DNA of 64,000 nt from Lautropia sp. (GTDB taxonomy: Bacteria; Pseudomonadota; Gammaproteobacteria; Burkholderiales; Burkholderiaceae_E): contig JAUNKF010000004.1 of the NCBI GenBank assembly GCA_030532895.1, positions 1-64,000 of the forward strand, given 5' to 3'. Positions 37,307 to 57,871 of this stretch are shown one piece after another. The translations under genes and the position numbers were made by a program. The notes below the pieces were generated by a model, which saw only the letters and a program-made list of their open reading frames with translations, searched no databases and was not told the DNA's origin. Position 1 is the stretch's first letter. Every line of letters starts with the position of its first letter.

Positions 37307-37369
37307 GCGCGTGTCATGCGCTTATTCGTTTCCGCGAAAGCCCCTCGCTGGGCGGGGCATGACACGCGC
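37307..37369. repeat. Perfect 13-bp inverted repeat in a divergent intergenic region
   Basis: GCGCGTGTCATGC (37307–37319) is the exact reverse complement of GCATGACACGCGC (37357–37369), with a 37-bp loop that contains a nested GCCCC…GGGGC pairing. It lies between the divergent gluQ and flavodoxin-like genes, so it is not a simple terminator. It could be a cruciform, an operator or a REP-like element. The rest of 37232–37525 shows nothing else apart from a ribosome site. Confidence 0.6.
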
Positions 37370-50465: not shown

Positions 50466-50492
50466 ACGTGCTCTTTTTTGGGAGGGTGGTTT

Positions 50493-51005
50493 GTGAGAAA
50501 GCTTTGTCTGGCTCGTTGGGTAACGGTAAGAGGCGTGCTTTTCGCATCACTTCTGCTGCTGTGCCTAGGAGTTGTGCGCGCCAATGATGATGTTAAGGTA
50601 GGACGAAGTGGCTCCATTGAAGATCCGATGATTGACTCCTTGAAGATCAAGCAGGGAAGGAGTCATTTGCTAAAGATTGGGGTGGAGCCTAGTCTGAAGG
50701 CGCTACTGGGTGCTCGATATGATGAGTTCCTGGAAAACTTTCAAGATATCACTGAGCCAACCCTTTTGAAGGACGGTGGCTATGTTCTGGACGGTTGGCG
50801 TCACATTGATTACGGGCGTGAGGATATTCATCCTTTTGATCACTCGGCGGTTTTTATTTATTACCCGGATGGGCGGGTCTACGCAGCCTGGTACAACAAG
50901 GATGAAGGGGTCATCCATTACGCTGGTGAGCGCTCAAGTCCGGTTCACGTCGGTGTAGACGCGTGGGCGCGACGTTTTTATCCGCCTATTCTCAGAGTGA
51001 AATAG
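50493..51005 (+). CDS. Secreted/periplasmic protein of unknown function
   Basis: The 170-residue product has a signal peptide (RGVLFASLLLLCLGVVRA, cleavage expected before NDD). The mature part reads ALLGARYDEFLENFQDITEP, GGYVLDGWRHIDYG and SAVFIYYPDGRVYAAWYNKD, ending in a compact beta-rich region with few Cys. The two-strand AVFIYYPDGRVYAAW pattern recalls Ivy-type lysozyme inhibitors and some periplasmic immunity proteins, but I cannot confirm either. I start at GTG 50493, with GGAGG seven bases upstream; TTG 50478 would place the ribosome site inside the gene. It is AT-richer than its surroundings and follows another small unknown gene, which suggests transfer. Confidence 0.6.
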   Translation: MRKLCLARWVTVRGVLFASLLLLCLGVVRANDDVKVGRSGSIEDPMIDSLKIKQGRSHLLKIGVEPSLKALLGARYDEFLENFQDITEPTLLKDGGYVLDGWRHIDYGREDIHPFDHSAVFIYYPDGRVYAAWYNKDEGVIHYAGERSSPVHVGVDAWARRFYPPILRVK

Positions 51006-52925: not shown

Positions 52926-53609
52926 TCAATTGTGCCCGATTTGTGTCTGCTTGGACATGCAGCGGCATGACGGGCGCCAAGGCTGCTTCAGACCCGCCTT
53001 GGCGAGCAGCTCACCGGTCTCGAAGAGCGGCAACCCCATGATACCGGAGTAGGAGCCTTCGATCTTGCGCACGAAGCGTGCGGCGGCGCCCTGAATGCCA
53101 TAGGCCCCGGCTTTGCCCATCGGCTCGCCGGTGCCCACATACCAGGCGATGTCCTCGGGCTTGAGCCGGGCAAACTGCACCCGTGAGACCTGCGTGCGTT
53201 TGAGCGTCTTGCGCCCGTTGGCGCTGATCACCACCACGGTGGTCAGCACCCGATGCGTGCGCCCGGACAGCTCCCGCAGGATGCGGGCGGCGTCGGCCTC
53301 ATCGGCCGGCTTGCCCAGAATGGTGCCGCCGATGGCCACGGTGGTGTCGGCGGCCAGGAGCGGCAGGGGTGGGTAAATGACAGGGCTTGTCGCCGGGGCT
53401 TCCTGCATCAGCGCTTCCAGCCGCTCGCGTGCCGCCTGGGCCTTGGCGAGCGCCACCCGCTCCACATACTGGGTGGGCGATTCGCCCACGCGCACCGCTT
53501 CGAGTGCTTCGGCTCGCGCCTCGTCTTCGTCCAGCAGCAGCCGGGCGTCGATACCGATTTGTTGGAGCAGTTGCAGCCGGCGCGGGCTGCGGGAGGCGAG
53601 GTAGATCAT
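52926..53609 (-). CDS. maf: Maf family nucleoside triphosphate pyrophosphatase
   Basis: The 227-residue product hydrolyses dTTP/UTP or modified nucleotides to monophosphates and protects against misincorporation. The signatures ASRSPRRLQLL, ADTTVAIGGTILGKP and GEPMGKAGAYGIQG are complete. The C-terminus has an extra, slightly unusual Lys/Arg/Cys tail (WRPSCRCMSKQTQ). I chose ATG 53609, which places MIYLASRSPRR at the very start; TTG 53621 is possible. It belongs to the maf–rng pair, here separated from rlmH by the HDO–EamA insertion. No ribosome site is clear. Confidence 0.93.
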   Translation of the reverse strand: MIYLASRSPRRLQLLQQIGIDARLLLDEDEARAEALEAVRVGESPTQYVERVALAKAQAARERLEALMQEAPATSPVIYPPLPLLAADTTVAIGGTILGKPADEADAARILRELSGRTHRVLTTVVVISANGRKTLKRTQVSRVQFARLKPEDIAWYVGTGEPMGKAGAYGIQGAAARFVRKIEGSYSGIMGLPLFETGELLAKAGLKQPWRPSCRCMSKQTQIGHN

Positions 53610-53701
53610 CGAGTGAGTCAAATAGGTAGTTTCCTGTCTTCTGTACTAGCGGATGTGCTCAGCACAGTGATGATAGTAAATGATCGAGCTAAACCTGGGA
53701 T

Positions 53702-53707
53702 TATAAT
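53702..53707 (+). promoter_or_regulatory. Possible -10 box for the HDO gene
   Basis: A perfect TATAAT lies about 100 bp before the start of the diiron-enzyme gene, in AT-rich DNA. The region 17 bp upstream (AATGAT) is a poor -35, so activation or a different sigma factor may be needed. Confidence 0.35.
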
Positions 53708-53805
53708 GGATGTGAGCTGTTGCGTAATGAAGGGTTCTTACTAGTTACATTGTCCGTTCCGAAAGAACATCATATAGCCGACTTATGTGCATGGAGAGAA
53801 GTGTC

Positions 53806-54876
53806 ATGAAATCAGGTGTTAAGGCGGCCAGTGAGATGATGTCTTTTGAAGACAAGGTGTTTCATCTTTCTTTAGATGGCCTGATTGATTGGTGGTGTGC
53901 TCAGGGAAAGATGAGTGCAAATAGTGGTTTCGAGGTTATTGATACAAAGATCGACTCGCTTTCAGAGGGGGTGTTTTCTCGTAATGACTTGAGTAAAAGG
54001 GCTGAGTTTCATCGGTCTTTGCTTAAACTATACGATATGCATGTTTCTTTGCCCTCCTCGGGAGGGGGTGGTAATAACTTTCAGTTTGATGTGTTTTTGA
54101 TTCATGTAAAAAACAGACTAGAGGATGAGTGGTTGAGGTTTGAGAGGCGATGTTTTTTGGATTTTATGGAAAGGCTTGGGGGTGAGAAGGGGGAGGGGGT
54201 TGTTGATTTGATTGGGCGTATGTGGTTGACTCATCCCTCTTCAAGGCATCCGCTGTTTTCGTACTTGGAAAGAGAGGCGGATATCGAGAAGATGTGTGAG
54301 TTTTTTGTGAGCGATAGCCCCTTGAATGTTCGGTTTTATGACCTGATTGTTCTTTCTATGGTAGGAGCTCCGGAAGATGTCAGGGTGGAGCTTGCTGGGA
54401 ATTTTTGGGATGAGTCAGGTCGAGGGGATGCGGGTTCTAGCCATGTATCACTCTTTAAGGCATTGCTTGATAAACTTGGAATTGAGAGGGCAGCAGACGA
54501 GCATGCGTCTCTTTTGTCCTTGGAGGGAATGGAAGGGTATAACCTTTTCATGATGACCGCATTGAACCGACGCTTGTATTACATGCTGTTGGGGGTGATG
54601 GCAATAACTGAGTTGATGGATCCGTCCCAGTATGAGCGACTTGTCAATGGTTGTCGTCGTCTTGGATTGTCTGATGAAGATATTTTGTATTACTCTGAGC
54701 ACGTCACTATTGATGTAGTGCATGGTGAAGGGTGGCTGAAAAACGTCATTTTTCCGATTGTTTCTCGGTGTCCATCCGCAGCTGGGGATGTTCTTTTTGG
54801 TGCTTATCTGCGCTTGAAAACGTGCCAATCTTATTATGACGCACTGCTGTTTAGGTTGAAGGAGGGTGAAACTTGA
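53806..54876 (+). CDS. Heme-oxygenase-like diiron oxidase/oxygenase (HDO superfamily, iron-containing redox enzyme)
   Basis: This 356-residue product matches the HDO fold family (relatives include UndA, SznF central domain, CADD). Metal ligands can be read in order: Glu203 and His213 in NFWDESGRGDAGSSHVSLF, Glu269 in MAITEL, and His299, Asp303, His306 in SEHVTIDVVHGEGWL. The spacings E-x9-H and H-x3-D-x2-H equal those of the SznF diiron site. The N-terminal 140 residues are helical and family-specific. HDO enzymes use O2 for N-oxygenation, C–C cleavage or decarboxylation in small-molecule pathways. The gene is markedly AT-rich and Gly codons favour GGG/GGT, unlike its neighbours, which suggests transfer. 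I chose ATG 53806 with GGAGAG seven bases upstream. It sits on the plus strand between maf and rlmH, 41 bp before an exporter gene. Confidence 0.75.
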   Translation: MKSGVKAASEMMSFEDKVFHLSLDGLIDWWCAQGKMSANSGFEVIDTKIDSLSEGVFSRNDLSKRAEFHRSLLKLYDMHVSLPSSGGGGNNFQFDVFLIHVKNRLEDEWLRFERRCFLDFMERLGGEKGEGVVDLIGRMWLTHPSSRHPLFSYLEREADIEKMCEFFVSDSPLNVRFYDLIVLSMVGAPEDVRVELAGNFWDESGRGDAGSSHVSLFKALLDKLGIERAADEHASLLSLEGMEGYNLFMMTALNRRLYYMLLGVMAITELMDPSQYERLVNGCRRLGLSDEDILYYSEHVTIDVVHGEGWLKNVIFPIVSRCPSAAGDVLFGAYLRLKTCQSYYDALLFRLKEGET

Positions 54877-54917
54877 TGAGCTGACTGAAAGTGGGTGTTT
54901 GAGAGTAAAAATCGTAT

Positions 54918-55799
54918 ATGCCACATTATTTGTTCCTGTCGCTGGCGGCCCTGTTCTGGGGCGGTAATTACGTGGTTGGCCGCGTGCTGGTGGCCGGTAT
55001 CGACCCGTTTCTGCTGTCGGCCATACGCTGGACGCTGACGGCGTTGTTGCTCGGCGCCCTGTACAGGACGCGCATTCGGCGGGAGCGTCCTTGTGCGTGG
55101 GCGGATTGGGGGCGGTTGCTCGGTTTTGCGGCGTTAGGGCAGGTGGCTTTTCCGGTCACGCTGTACATGGCGCTTCAAACAGTCACTTCGGTGCGCACGG
55201 CGCTCTACATGGCGGCTTCGCCCTGCATCGTGATGTTGCTGAGCCGGCTGCTCTTTGGTGATGCGCTTCGCGTCCGGGCGGTGCTGGGCATCTTCATCAG
55301 CACACTAGGCGTGCTCGTGGTGCTCTCGGAGGGGCGGCTGGATCGTTTGGGCGATACGGGGCAGCTGGCCGTGGGTGATCTTTGGGCGATGGGGTCGGTG
55401 CTGAGCTGGGCACTGTATTGCACCTGTTTGCGGCTCAAGCCCAAAGGCTTGTCCAGCGAAAGTTTTGTGGCCTTGTCATCCATGATTGGCGCTGTCTTGT
55501 TGTTGCCTTTTGCCTGGCATGCCATTGAGGCCGTGCAGCAGGGGAGAATGGTGCTGGCGTGGGATGCCACCCAACTGTTGGGCGTGGCCTATCTGGTGAT
55601 CTTCCCGTCGTGGCTGTCGTACCTGTTCTGGAACCGCGGGATTGCCGTCGTCGGTGCGGCCAGAGGCGACATTTTTACCCACCTGATTCCGCTCAGCGGC
55701 GGCTTGTTGGGCATCCTGCTCCTGGGGGAACCTTTTGGCAGCTATCACCTGGTGGGGGCGTGCTGCATCCTGTTGGGCTTGGTGCTTTGCCGACGTTAG
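54918..55799 (+). CDS. EamA/DMT-family transporter
   Basis: This 293-residue inner-membrane protein has two EamA repeats, about ten helices. The first opens LFLSLAALFWGGNYVVGRVL and the second LWAMGSVLSWALYCTCLRLK; GDIFTHLIPLSGGLLGILLL and LLGEPFGSYHLVGACCILLG end the second repeat. Family members export amino acids, purines or other metabolites. It follows the HDO gene by 41 bp on the same strand, with no terminator seen between, so a make-and-export unit is plausible. Its own base composition is like the chromosome average, unlike the HDO gene. After it, a short GACAC…GTGTC hairpin (near 55808–55824) faces the converging rlmH. Confidence 0.88.
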   Translation: MPHYLFLSLAALFWGGNYVVGRVLVAGIDPFLLSAIRWTLTALLLGALYRTRIRRERPCAWADWGRLLGFAALGQVAFPVTLYMALQTVTSVRTALYMAASPCIVMLLSRLLFGDALRVRAVLGIFISTLGVLVVLSEGRLDRLGDTGQLAVGDLWAMGSVLSWALYCTCLRLKPKGLSSESFVALSSMIGAVLLLPFAWHAIEAVQQGRMVLAWDATQLLGVAYLVIFPSWLSYLFWNRGIAVVGAARGDIFTHLIPLSGGLLGILLLGEPFGSYHLVGACCILLGLVLCRR

Positions 55800-55970
55800 C
55801 GCGTGTATGACACGTTCCAGGTGTCGTGTCTCTACTCATTGTTCGCGCCAAAACGTGCGGGTTGTCGAAGGGCAACATCAATAGACGATAGGGCGGGTGT
55901 TAACCCATACCAGTAGTAAGGCGGCTGTGTATTTTGGAGCAGCCATTGAGGCGGTTGGCTGCCGCTACCA

Positions 55971-56459
55971 TCACTCCCGGTGATAAGGATGATTGGCATT
56001 GATCGACCAGGCCCGATAGAGCTGTTCAGCCAGCAGCACGCGCACGAGGGCGTGGGGCAGGGTGAGGCTCGATAGCCGGATGCTTTCGTGGGCCTCGGCG
56101 TGCAGGGCGGGGTCGAGGCCATCGGGGCCGCCGATCAGTAGCGCCACGGGCTGGGCCGTCTGCTGCCAGCCTTGCAGTCGCTGGGCCAGCGCCGTGGTGC
56201 GCAGATCCTGCCCGCGCTCGTCCAGCGCCACGATGCGGGCTTTGGGCGGAATCTTGGCGCGCAGCCGTTCGGCCTCACGCGCCATCAGTGTGGCGGTAGC
56301 GGCCTCGGTGCGGCGGGTTGGATCGCCGGTGCGGTTTTCGGTCTTGACGGCCACCAGCTCCACCGTCAGCTCTTTCGGAAAGCGCTTCAGGTAGTCGGCC
56401 ACGGCCTCTTCCACCCAGCGAGGGCTGCGCTGGCCAACGGCGATGATGCGGATCAGCAT
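55971..56459 (-). CDS. rlmH: 23S rRNA (pseudouridine-1915-N3) methyltransferase
   Basis: This 162-residue SPOUT-class methyltransferase acts on the assembled 70S ribosome at helix 69 of 23S rRNA. It starts LIRIIAVGQRSPRWV, has the S-adenosylmethionine knot loop LLIGGPDGLDPAL and ends with the family's AEQLYRAWSINANHPYHRE. Length is typical. Start is the ATG 56459. It follows rsfS by 27 bp on the same strand. Its normal partner maf lies 2.4 kb further down because of the HDO–EamA insertion. Confidence 0.95.
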   Translation of the reverse strand: MLIRIIAVGQRSPRWVEEAVADYLKRFPKELTVELVAVKTENRTGDPTRRTEAATATLMAREAERLRAKIPPKARIVALDERGQDLRTTALAQRLQGWQQTAQPVALLIGGPDGLDPALHAEAHESIRLSSLTLPHALVRVLLAEQLYRAWSINANHPYHRE

Positions 56460-57026: not shown

Positions 57027-57455
57027 TCAGGTGCCACCCAGCCAAGGATTCAGCAGCTTGATGTCGATACCGTTGAAATCGGCGATGTTACGTGTCACCA
57101 GCGTCAAATCCTGAACTTGTGCGGTTGCTGCAATCAAAGCATCCATTTCTGGCCTGGGGTTCGGAACATGCAGATGGCTGCATTGAAAGGCAATTTGGGT
57201 CGTGACCGGTATGATCCGGCTGGAGAACAGGGGTATGACCTGTTCATCTAGCCATGTTCTCAATATCCGCCCTTGGGTGGGGTCTCGACGTTCCATCAGC
57301 AGTGTGCCCAGATTCAGCTCATGAATTGTGATGACAGAAAGGTATAGCTGATCACCTGATACCTGTCTGGCCCAGCGACCGACATGGGGGGCACAGTTTC
57401 CGCTTTTCAGCTTTCTCAATTCCGAGATGACATTGGTGTCCAGTAGGTACTTCAT
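57027..57455 (-). CDS. vapC: VapC-type PIN-domain toxin ribonuclease
   Basis: The 142-residue product has the PIN acidic residues in order: Asp6 (YLLDTNVIS), Glu46 (TIHELNLGT), Asp105 (EMDALIAATA) and Asp126 (NIADF), which bind Mg for RNA cleavage, often of tRNA or rRNA. The pattern is closest to the FitB/VapC subgroup. Its ATG overlaps the antitoxin stop (ATGA). Base composition is lower in GC than the surrounding operon. The cassette lies between nadD and rsfS, which are normally adjacent. Confidence 0.92.
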   Translation of the reverse strand: MKYLLDTNVISELRKLKSGNCAPHVGRWARQVSGDQLYLSVITIHELNLGTLLMERRDPTQGRILRTWLDEQVIPLFSSRIIPVTTQIAFQCSHLHVPNPRPEMDALIAATAQVQDLTLVTRNIADFNGIDIKLLNPWLGGT

Positions 57456-57709
57456 CTCATGTCGATGGAGCGGGGCAAGGCTTTGGATCTGGGGAAGTCA
57501 ATGTCGATGTCGGCCACTTCTGGTGGCGTGCCCAGCGCGTCCAGCCAGGCAGGCAGATGATCGGTGCTGGCCGGGTCGTTCACTTGTCTTTCTGCCTCGG
57601 CTACAGCGGTTTCGATCAGTTGAACCAAGGTTTCTGACTTGAGAATGCCACGGCGTCTGGCGCGTTCGGCCAAGGCGTCGGGCAGTGTGATGGGGACGGT
57701 GATACTCAT
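57452..57709 (-). CDS. vapB: VapB-type antitoxin
   Basis: The 85-residue product has an N-terminal ribbon-helix-helix-like segment (ITVPITLPDALAERARRRG) for operator binding and a C-terminal acidic tail (PEVADIDIDFPRSK) suited to covering the toxin site. Start ATG 57709 has GGAGG six bases upstream; the longer in-frame form from 57787 would include that ribosome site. It overlaps vapC by four bases. Autorepression by the VapBC complex is expected from family knowledge. Upstream (57710–57871) no clear promoter is seen. Confidence 0.88.
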   Translation of the reverse strand: MSITVPITLPDALAERARRRGILKSETLVQLIETAVAEAERQVNDPASTDHLPAWLDALGTPPEVADIDIDFPRSKALPRSIDMR

Positions 57710-57871
57710 GGCATCCTCCCGGAGGCGGTCGGGGGTGGGCAAGCAGAATAAGATATACCCGAGCGATTGCCAAGGGGAAGGGGACATTTGTACTTTGGGT
57801 TGGCAGCTACGACAGTAGCCTCGGGCAAAAGTCCATGACTTCTTCAGAGTATCCCTGGTTCTTGACGCCGG

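Follow-up and report, generated by a model that had tools for sequence, protein, structure and literature searches.

A HrmI-type diiron oxygenase gene beside a DMT-family exporter gene between maf and rlmH in Lautropia sp.: a probable two-gene make-and-export unit

The heme-oxygenase-like diiron oxygenases (HDOs) include HrmI, a lysine N6-oxygenase that converts lysine to 6-nitronorleucine in hormaomycin biosynthesis and has an ortholog, BelK, in the belactosin pathway. Other described members are the HDO domain of SznF, from the streptozotocin pathway, and BesC, the 4-chloro-allylglycine synthase; among exporters of the DMT family, E. coli EamA (YdeD) exports cysteine and O-acetylserine. Here we analyze a 64,000-nucleotide stretch of DNA from Lautropia sp. 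(contig JAUNKF010000004.1, positions 1 to 64,000 of the forward strand; "the window"), in which the gene for a HrmI-type HDO of 356 residues (53806..54876, plus strand) is followed by that for an EamA/DMT-family exporter of 293 residues (54918..55799, plus strand). Both stand in an interval flanked by maf (52926..53621, minus strand) and rlmH (55971..56459, minus strand). We regard the pair as a probable minimal make-and-export unit for a modified amino acid, consisting of a HrmI-type HDO and a DMT exporter (probability about 0.6), because the same kind of pair occurs in some other bacteria; units of this kind appear to recur in Enterobacterales, mostly on plasmid records.

The HDO matches PF14518 (Haem_oxygenas_2) with an E-value of 4.6e-40 (137.7 bits against a cut-off of 28.9), which is its sole Pfam match at a threshold of 0.1. 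The six metal ligands listed in a preliminary description of the locus (E203, H213, E269, H299, D303, and H306; three histidines and three carboxylates) are all present in the open reading frame (ORF) and align in register with those of HrmI. Judged by its sequence, the protein is an intact member of the heme-oxygenase-like dimetal oxygenase superfamily. The preliminary description had taken SznF as the model, and the ligand spacing on which this relied (E-x9-H and H-x3-D-x2-H) is indeed common to both proteins, but the closest solved enzyme is HrmI, with E-values of 8.5e-37 versus 3.3e-4 for SznF in a sequence search and 2.3e-57 versus 1.8e-9 in a profile search. The window HDO further differs from SznF in lacking a C-terminal cupin domain, and SznF is assigned a 3H/4C ligand set in one review (PMC13108848).

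In the profile alignment (E 2.3e-57), residues 47–353 of the HDO are paired with residues 34–342 of HrmI. The homology is thus nearly full length and includes the N-terminal region, so the first ∼140 residues are not the separate unknown for which they had been taken. The two proteins belong to the same length class (362 residues in HrmI versus 356), have homologous N-terminal helices and the same six ligands, and have in common R255, N246, W310, R336, Y343, and D345 (window numbering). They differ in overall sequence (28% identity in a Foldseek alignment), in clade, at 26 positions past residue 140 that are invariant in the aligned clade rows and hold another residue in HrmI, and in gene context, which for the window HDO is a two-gene arrangement with no adjoining 2-oxoglutarate (2OG) partner gene. 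BesC is an HDO whose substrate is a free amino acid, as is proposed for the window enzyme, and the HDO gene of a K. variicola member of the window clade also adjoins a 2OG-halogenase-like gene; the window HDO itself, in contrast, scores 19 bits on NF042919 (cut-off 500) and has no adjoining halogenase.

The exporter matches EamA (PF00892) over two stretches (E 1e-44; 152.5 bits against a cut-off of 28.2). As a DMT protein with two EamA stretches it resembles EamA (YdeD) and the LysE/RhtB amino-acid exporters, with which it would share the same broad role; it is 23% identical to E. coli EamA and scores 98.4 bits on the carboxylate/amino acid/amine transporter equivalog TIGR00950, below the cut-off of 230.2. 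A profile of its DMT subfamily, compared with three E. coli DMT proteins, matched EamA best (7.6e-15, versus 1.5e-4 for BioP and 9.5e-4 for RhtA).

The preliminary description correctly placed the exporter 41 bp after the HDO gene (spacer 54877..54917, plus strand, 39.0% GC), a distance compatible with one transcript for both genes. A second in-frame ATG of the HDO ORF lies at 53785; the start at 53806 has the better-placed ribosome site (GGAGAG). The low GC content reported for the HDO gene is likewise borne out (45.1% versus 62.1% for the whole window) and is limited to this gene and its two spacers, with the AT-rich block stopping at the start of the exporter gene (61.7% GC). In the AT-rich spacer between maf and the HDO gene (53622..53805, 42.4% GC), a promoter scan found no promoter-like match on the plus strand and a single one on the minus strand, compared with 1.8 in shuffled sequences, and an Rfam search of this spacer returned no family. 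Nothing in these data favours the silencing by H-NS that the preliminary description had proposed.

The preliminary description had proposed a search for the pair in other genomes, and the neighbourhood does recur. Matches to the HDO occur in 55 plasmid records, of which 16 were examined. Nine of these carry an HDO of the window clade (35–41% identity over at least 80% of the length), and G418, from genome searches, brings the clade to 10 records; two weak matches (L006 and L007) were left out. In a tree of 35 HDO rows, in which HrmI is represented by a 223-residue fragment, an inner clade unites the window with 8 records (support 96/85) and a wider clade adds Paraburkholderia and G418 (88/89). 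We know of no characterised member of this clade. A DMT gene immediately adjoins the HDO gene in 6/10 clade records and 3/6 lineages, as compared with one (G093) of 23 other HDOs (L001–L004, L055, L068–L070, L073–L077, L084–L089, and L096–L099, with L073–L077 covering just ∼1.5 kb on either side of the HDO). By Fisher's exact test this association has a p value of 0.001 when counted by record and 0.02 when counted by lineage, the latter being the fair figure.

The DMT gene lies 95 bp downstream of the HDO gene in three Salmonella records and 52 bp downstream in a Rahnella record, and is divergent from it in two K. pneumoniae records, one of which, at 5.4 Mb, looks like a mislabelled chromosome. 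These DMT partners are ∼41–51% identical to the window exporter, and the HDO and DMT trees both unite Salmonella with Rahnella. One of the 14 rows in the DMT profile used for the neighbour scan (L040_G046) was a meaningless wrong-strand translation; the adjacent DMT genes were confirmed independently by annotation, by Pfam and, for L066, by tblastn, and the later DMT tree omits L040_G046 together with two long branches. The Salmonella pair had no DNA-level match in E. coli genomes, and none of 28 stretches of viral contigs that matched a pattern encodes a relative. Literature searches, which largely missed subscription papers, turned up no paper on an HDO-DMT pair.

Other clade members have different neighbours. 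In the K. variicola and K. aerogenes records, genes for a TetR protein, the HDO, a 303-residue protein, and a LysE exporter stand in a row (L054 7074–10609; L083 2574–6108). The 303-residue protein of K. variicola is 2OG-halogenase-like (BtnX, 2.7e-77) with a WHIG motif, HxG being the mark of halogenases, and its LysE protein is RhtB-like; this row perhaps encodes a pathway to a halogenated amino acid or vitamin analogue. In the Paraburkholderia member, TetR adjoins the HDO gene and genes for a 2OG oxygenase and a peptide ligase are nearby, with no adjacent exporter. In G418 a DMT gene is found ∼3.4 kb downstream of the HDO gene, beyond an ATP-grasp gene. On plasmid Rts1 a DMT gene follows an HDO gene that is broken into two frames and ends at family position 217, with four of the six ligands gone.

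To place the Lautropia pair in its genomic setting, we compared the maf-rlmH interval among relatives. As had been claimed, maf and rlmH are normally neighbours: no more than ∼155 bp separates them in 5/8 same-genus relatives (G001, G002, G004, G007, and G005, whose rlmH is truncated where the contig stops). The two genes are likewise adjacent in 20 of 21 same-family loci compared, the remaining locus running into the end of its contig; 27 same-family genomes have an rlmH match. Among the three other members of the genus, the contig of G003 also breaks off here, G008 lacks a maf match over the ∼4.4 kb past rlmH, and the closest relative, G006 (93% identity for rlmH, 84% for maf, and 83% for the exporter), carries the exporter at the same place and in the same orientation. 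By its distribution the HDO gene is foreign, because matches to it are rare (own genome counted throughout): 3/61 relatives at 1e-5, with only the own genome strong, 5/369 genomes in the class at 1e-20, 6/398 in the phylum at 1e-30, and 5/399 in the order at 1e-25, where the own match has an E-value of 3.7e-154 and the next 5.6e-34. The exporter is also rare (3/61 relatives at 1e-40, own genome counted).

The exporter probably occupied the maf-rlmH interval before the lineages of the window genome and G006 diverged, and the AT-rich HDO gene was probably acquired afterwards from a distant source. We infer this order of arrival because the exporter of G006 has no HDO beside it at this place and only the HDO gene is AT-rich. 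Transfer of both genes in a single event, as one cassette, is doubtful in view of the G006 arrangement and of the GC content at third codon positions (GC3; 0.46 for the HDO versus 0.77 for the exporter). Alternatively, the HDO gene may have been lost from G006 rather than gained in the window genome. Remnants do not separate the two histories, and gain is favoured over loss only because of composition and the G006 arrangement. A candidate HDO remnant in the G006 interval, a raw protein match near an 8-residue HVTVNIVH-like motif (5/1000 shuffles as good), was unsupported by the family profile (145/1000 shuffles as good; 78/1000 for a wider profile) and was not used. No conspicuous repeat marks the ends of the window interval (53550–55000 examined). 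A 34-bp piece of the maf-exporter interval of G006 (L041 6022–6378) recurs at 37321–37354 of the window with 88% identity; the G006 interval also holds a 22-bp inverted repeat, and the two together perhaps represent a dispersed palindromic element.

By analogy with HrmI, the reduced diiron site of the HDO would bind O2 and oxygenate a free amino acid, or a close relative of one, most likely at an amine nitrogen of the side chain, the position that HrmI oxidises in lysine. The DMT protein would then expel the product, a direction of transport suggested by its family and by the recurrence of the pair. More speculatively, the product may be an amino-acid antimetabolite directed against neighbours, to which the exporter confers immunity. 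The pair would then resemble a toxin-immunity module that works with a small molecule, in which the HDO makes a diffusible antimetabolite in one step and the exporter provides both release and immunity; we consider this elaboration unlikely. Export is reported to protect against an amino-acid antimetabolite in the case of LysO and thialysine (PMC8498466). On the toxin-immunity reading, G006, Rts1, and the orphan DMT genes of Enterobacterales plasmids would represent survivors kept for immunity only, and the window genome would have gained the enzyme beside a resident exporter.

Several observations weigh against a make-and-export unit. The independent lineages are few, two of the three Salmonella HDOs being identical and the two K. 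pneumoniae HDOs nearly so. In the tree HrmI clusters with G093, G090, and the Agrobacterium HDO L087 (98/93), outside the window clade, and is thus not orthologous to the window HDO. The AlphaFold model (from a run of 5 sequences) has low confidence, with a mean predicted local distance difference test (pLDDT) score of 54.9 and values below 50 over residues 127–235 and 291–305, and no ligand geometry was drawn from it. The HDO and DMT genes have similar GC3 values in the Salmonella, Rahnella, and K. pneumoniae pairs, whereas those of the window differ (0.46/0.77), and no TetR gene adjoins the window pair, as one does the HDO genes of K. pneumoniae, K. variicola, K. aerogenes, and Paraburkholderia. 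In G006 the exporter is alone, the ∼360 bp between it and maf having no HDO match, and DMT kin with no adjoining HDO occur as a second Salmonella copy and in Citrobacter, Pasteurella, and a K. aerogenes plasmid. Together with G006 and Rts1, these orphans show that the exporter can be retained in the absence of the enzyme; this is expected if the exporter also protects and fits equally well an exporter with another use. The preliminary description had named relatives with a lone exporter and an HDO pseudogene as evidence against a make-and-export unit; a lone exporter is found in G006 and a broken HDO gene on Rts1, never both in one relative, and the HDO gene of the window is intact.

The lone exporter of G006, the difference in composition between the two genes, and the DMT kin that have no HDO beside them would all suit an ordinary resident DMT exporter next to which the HDO gene landed by chance, with no joint function. 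It is rather improbable, in our estimate, that this is the whole explanation, since members of this one HDO clade from K. pneumoniae, Salmonella, and Rahnella all adjoin DMT genes of the same subfamily, ∼41–51% identical to the window exporter, and on Rts1 the DMT gene is preceded by a broken HDO gene. Somewhat less easily set aside, though still doubtful, is that the exporter serves the product of another HDO chemistry, such as C-C cleavage (as in BesC), desaturation or azetidine formation (as in PolF), or a reaction on a non-amino-acid substrate such as a vitamin. HDOs with near-identical ligands and substrates carry out different reactions, according to PMC13108848; the BesC model is weakly matched by 5/6 clade members scanned (best 5.7e-9), and the neighbouring gene in the K. 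variicola record resembles a biotin halogenase. The window protein is nevertheless far below the BesC cut-off (19 versus 500 bits), and no other solved structure is nearly as close as that of HrmI. A self-sacrificing p-aminobenzoate synthase of the CADD/NePabS type, with an incidental exporter, has the HDO fold in common with the window protein, and such a synthase has been reported from Nitrosomonas europaea (PMC11965152). This identity is highly improbable: the 9 sequence matches to the HDO at E-values up to 1 include no chain named as CADD, and CADD ranks 21 in the Foldseek search (probability 0.33), for which the low-confidence model was used.

Validated functions are reported for only about a dozen of more than 10,000 estimated HDOs (PMC13108848). 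Against this background, the Lautropia pair appears neither ordinary nor categorically new, being a HrmI-type HDO clade in a recurrent minimal HDO-exporter arrangement. As a two-gene unit it simplifies the search for substrate and product, which involves a single enzyme, O2, and the common amino acids, and the exporter should place the product in the medium. The recurrence of the pair in Klebsiella, Salmonella, and Rahnella and the exporter-only forms to which it decays would suggest that one-step amino-acid antimetabolites exist as a class not yet recognised.

Elsewhere in the window, a 175-residue ORF with no Pfam match (50478–51005) lies beyond rng in a stretch of lower GC (47–51%). A PIN-domain (VapC-like) gene and its small upstream partner lie between rsfS and nadD (57027–57787); in G006 the rsfS-nadD gap is only ∼120 bp, and neither protein has a match in the relatives' loci searched.

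Among the more distant HDOs, those on cyanobacterial plasmids of Nostoc C052 and Leptolyngbya boryana (L085 and L088) are directly downstream of a NACHT-domain NTPase gene, the place of which is taken by an 800-residue unnamed gene in Nostoc HK-01 (L086). On an Agrobacterium vitis plasmid (L087 2047–5978), genes for a fatty-acid desaturase, the HDO, and a PF10014 2OG oxygenase and a gene annotated dapF stand in a row. Three actinomycete HDO genes (L001, L003, and L004) lie between a homocitrate-synthase-like gene and a flavoprotein gene, with ATP-grasp and MFS genes near that of L001 and an ATP-grasp gene near that of L004, all names being read from the ORFs.
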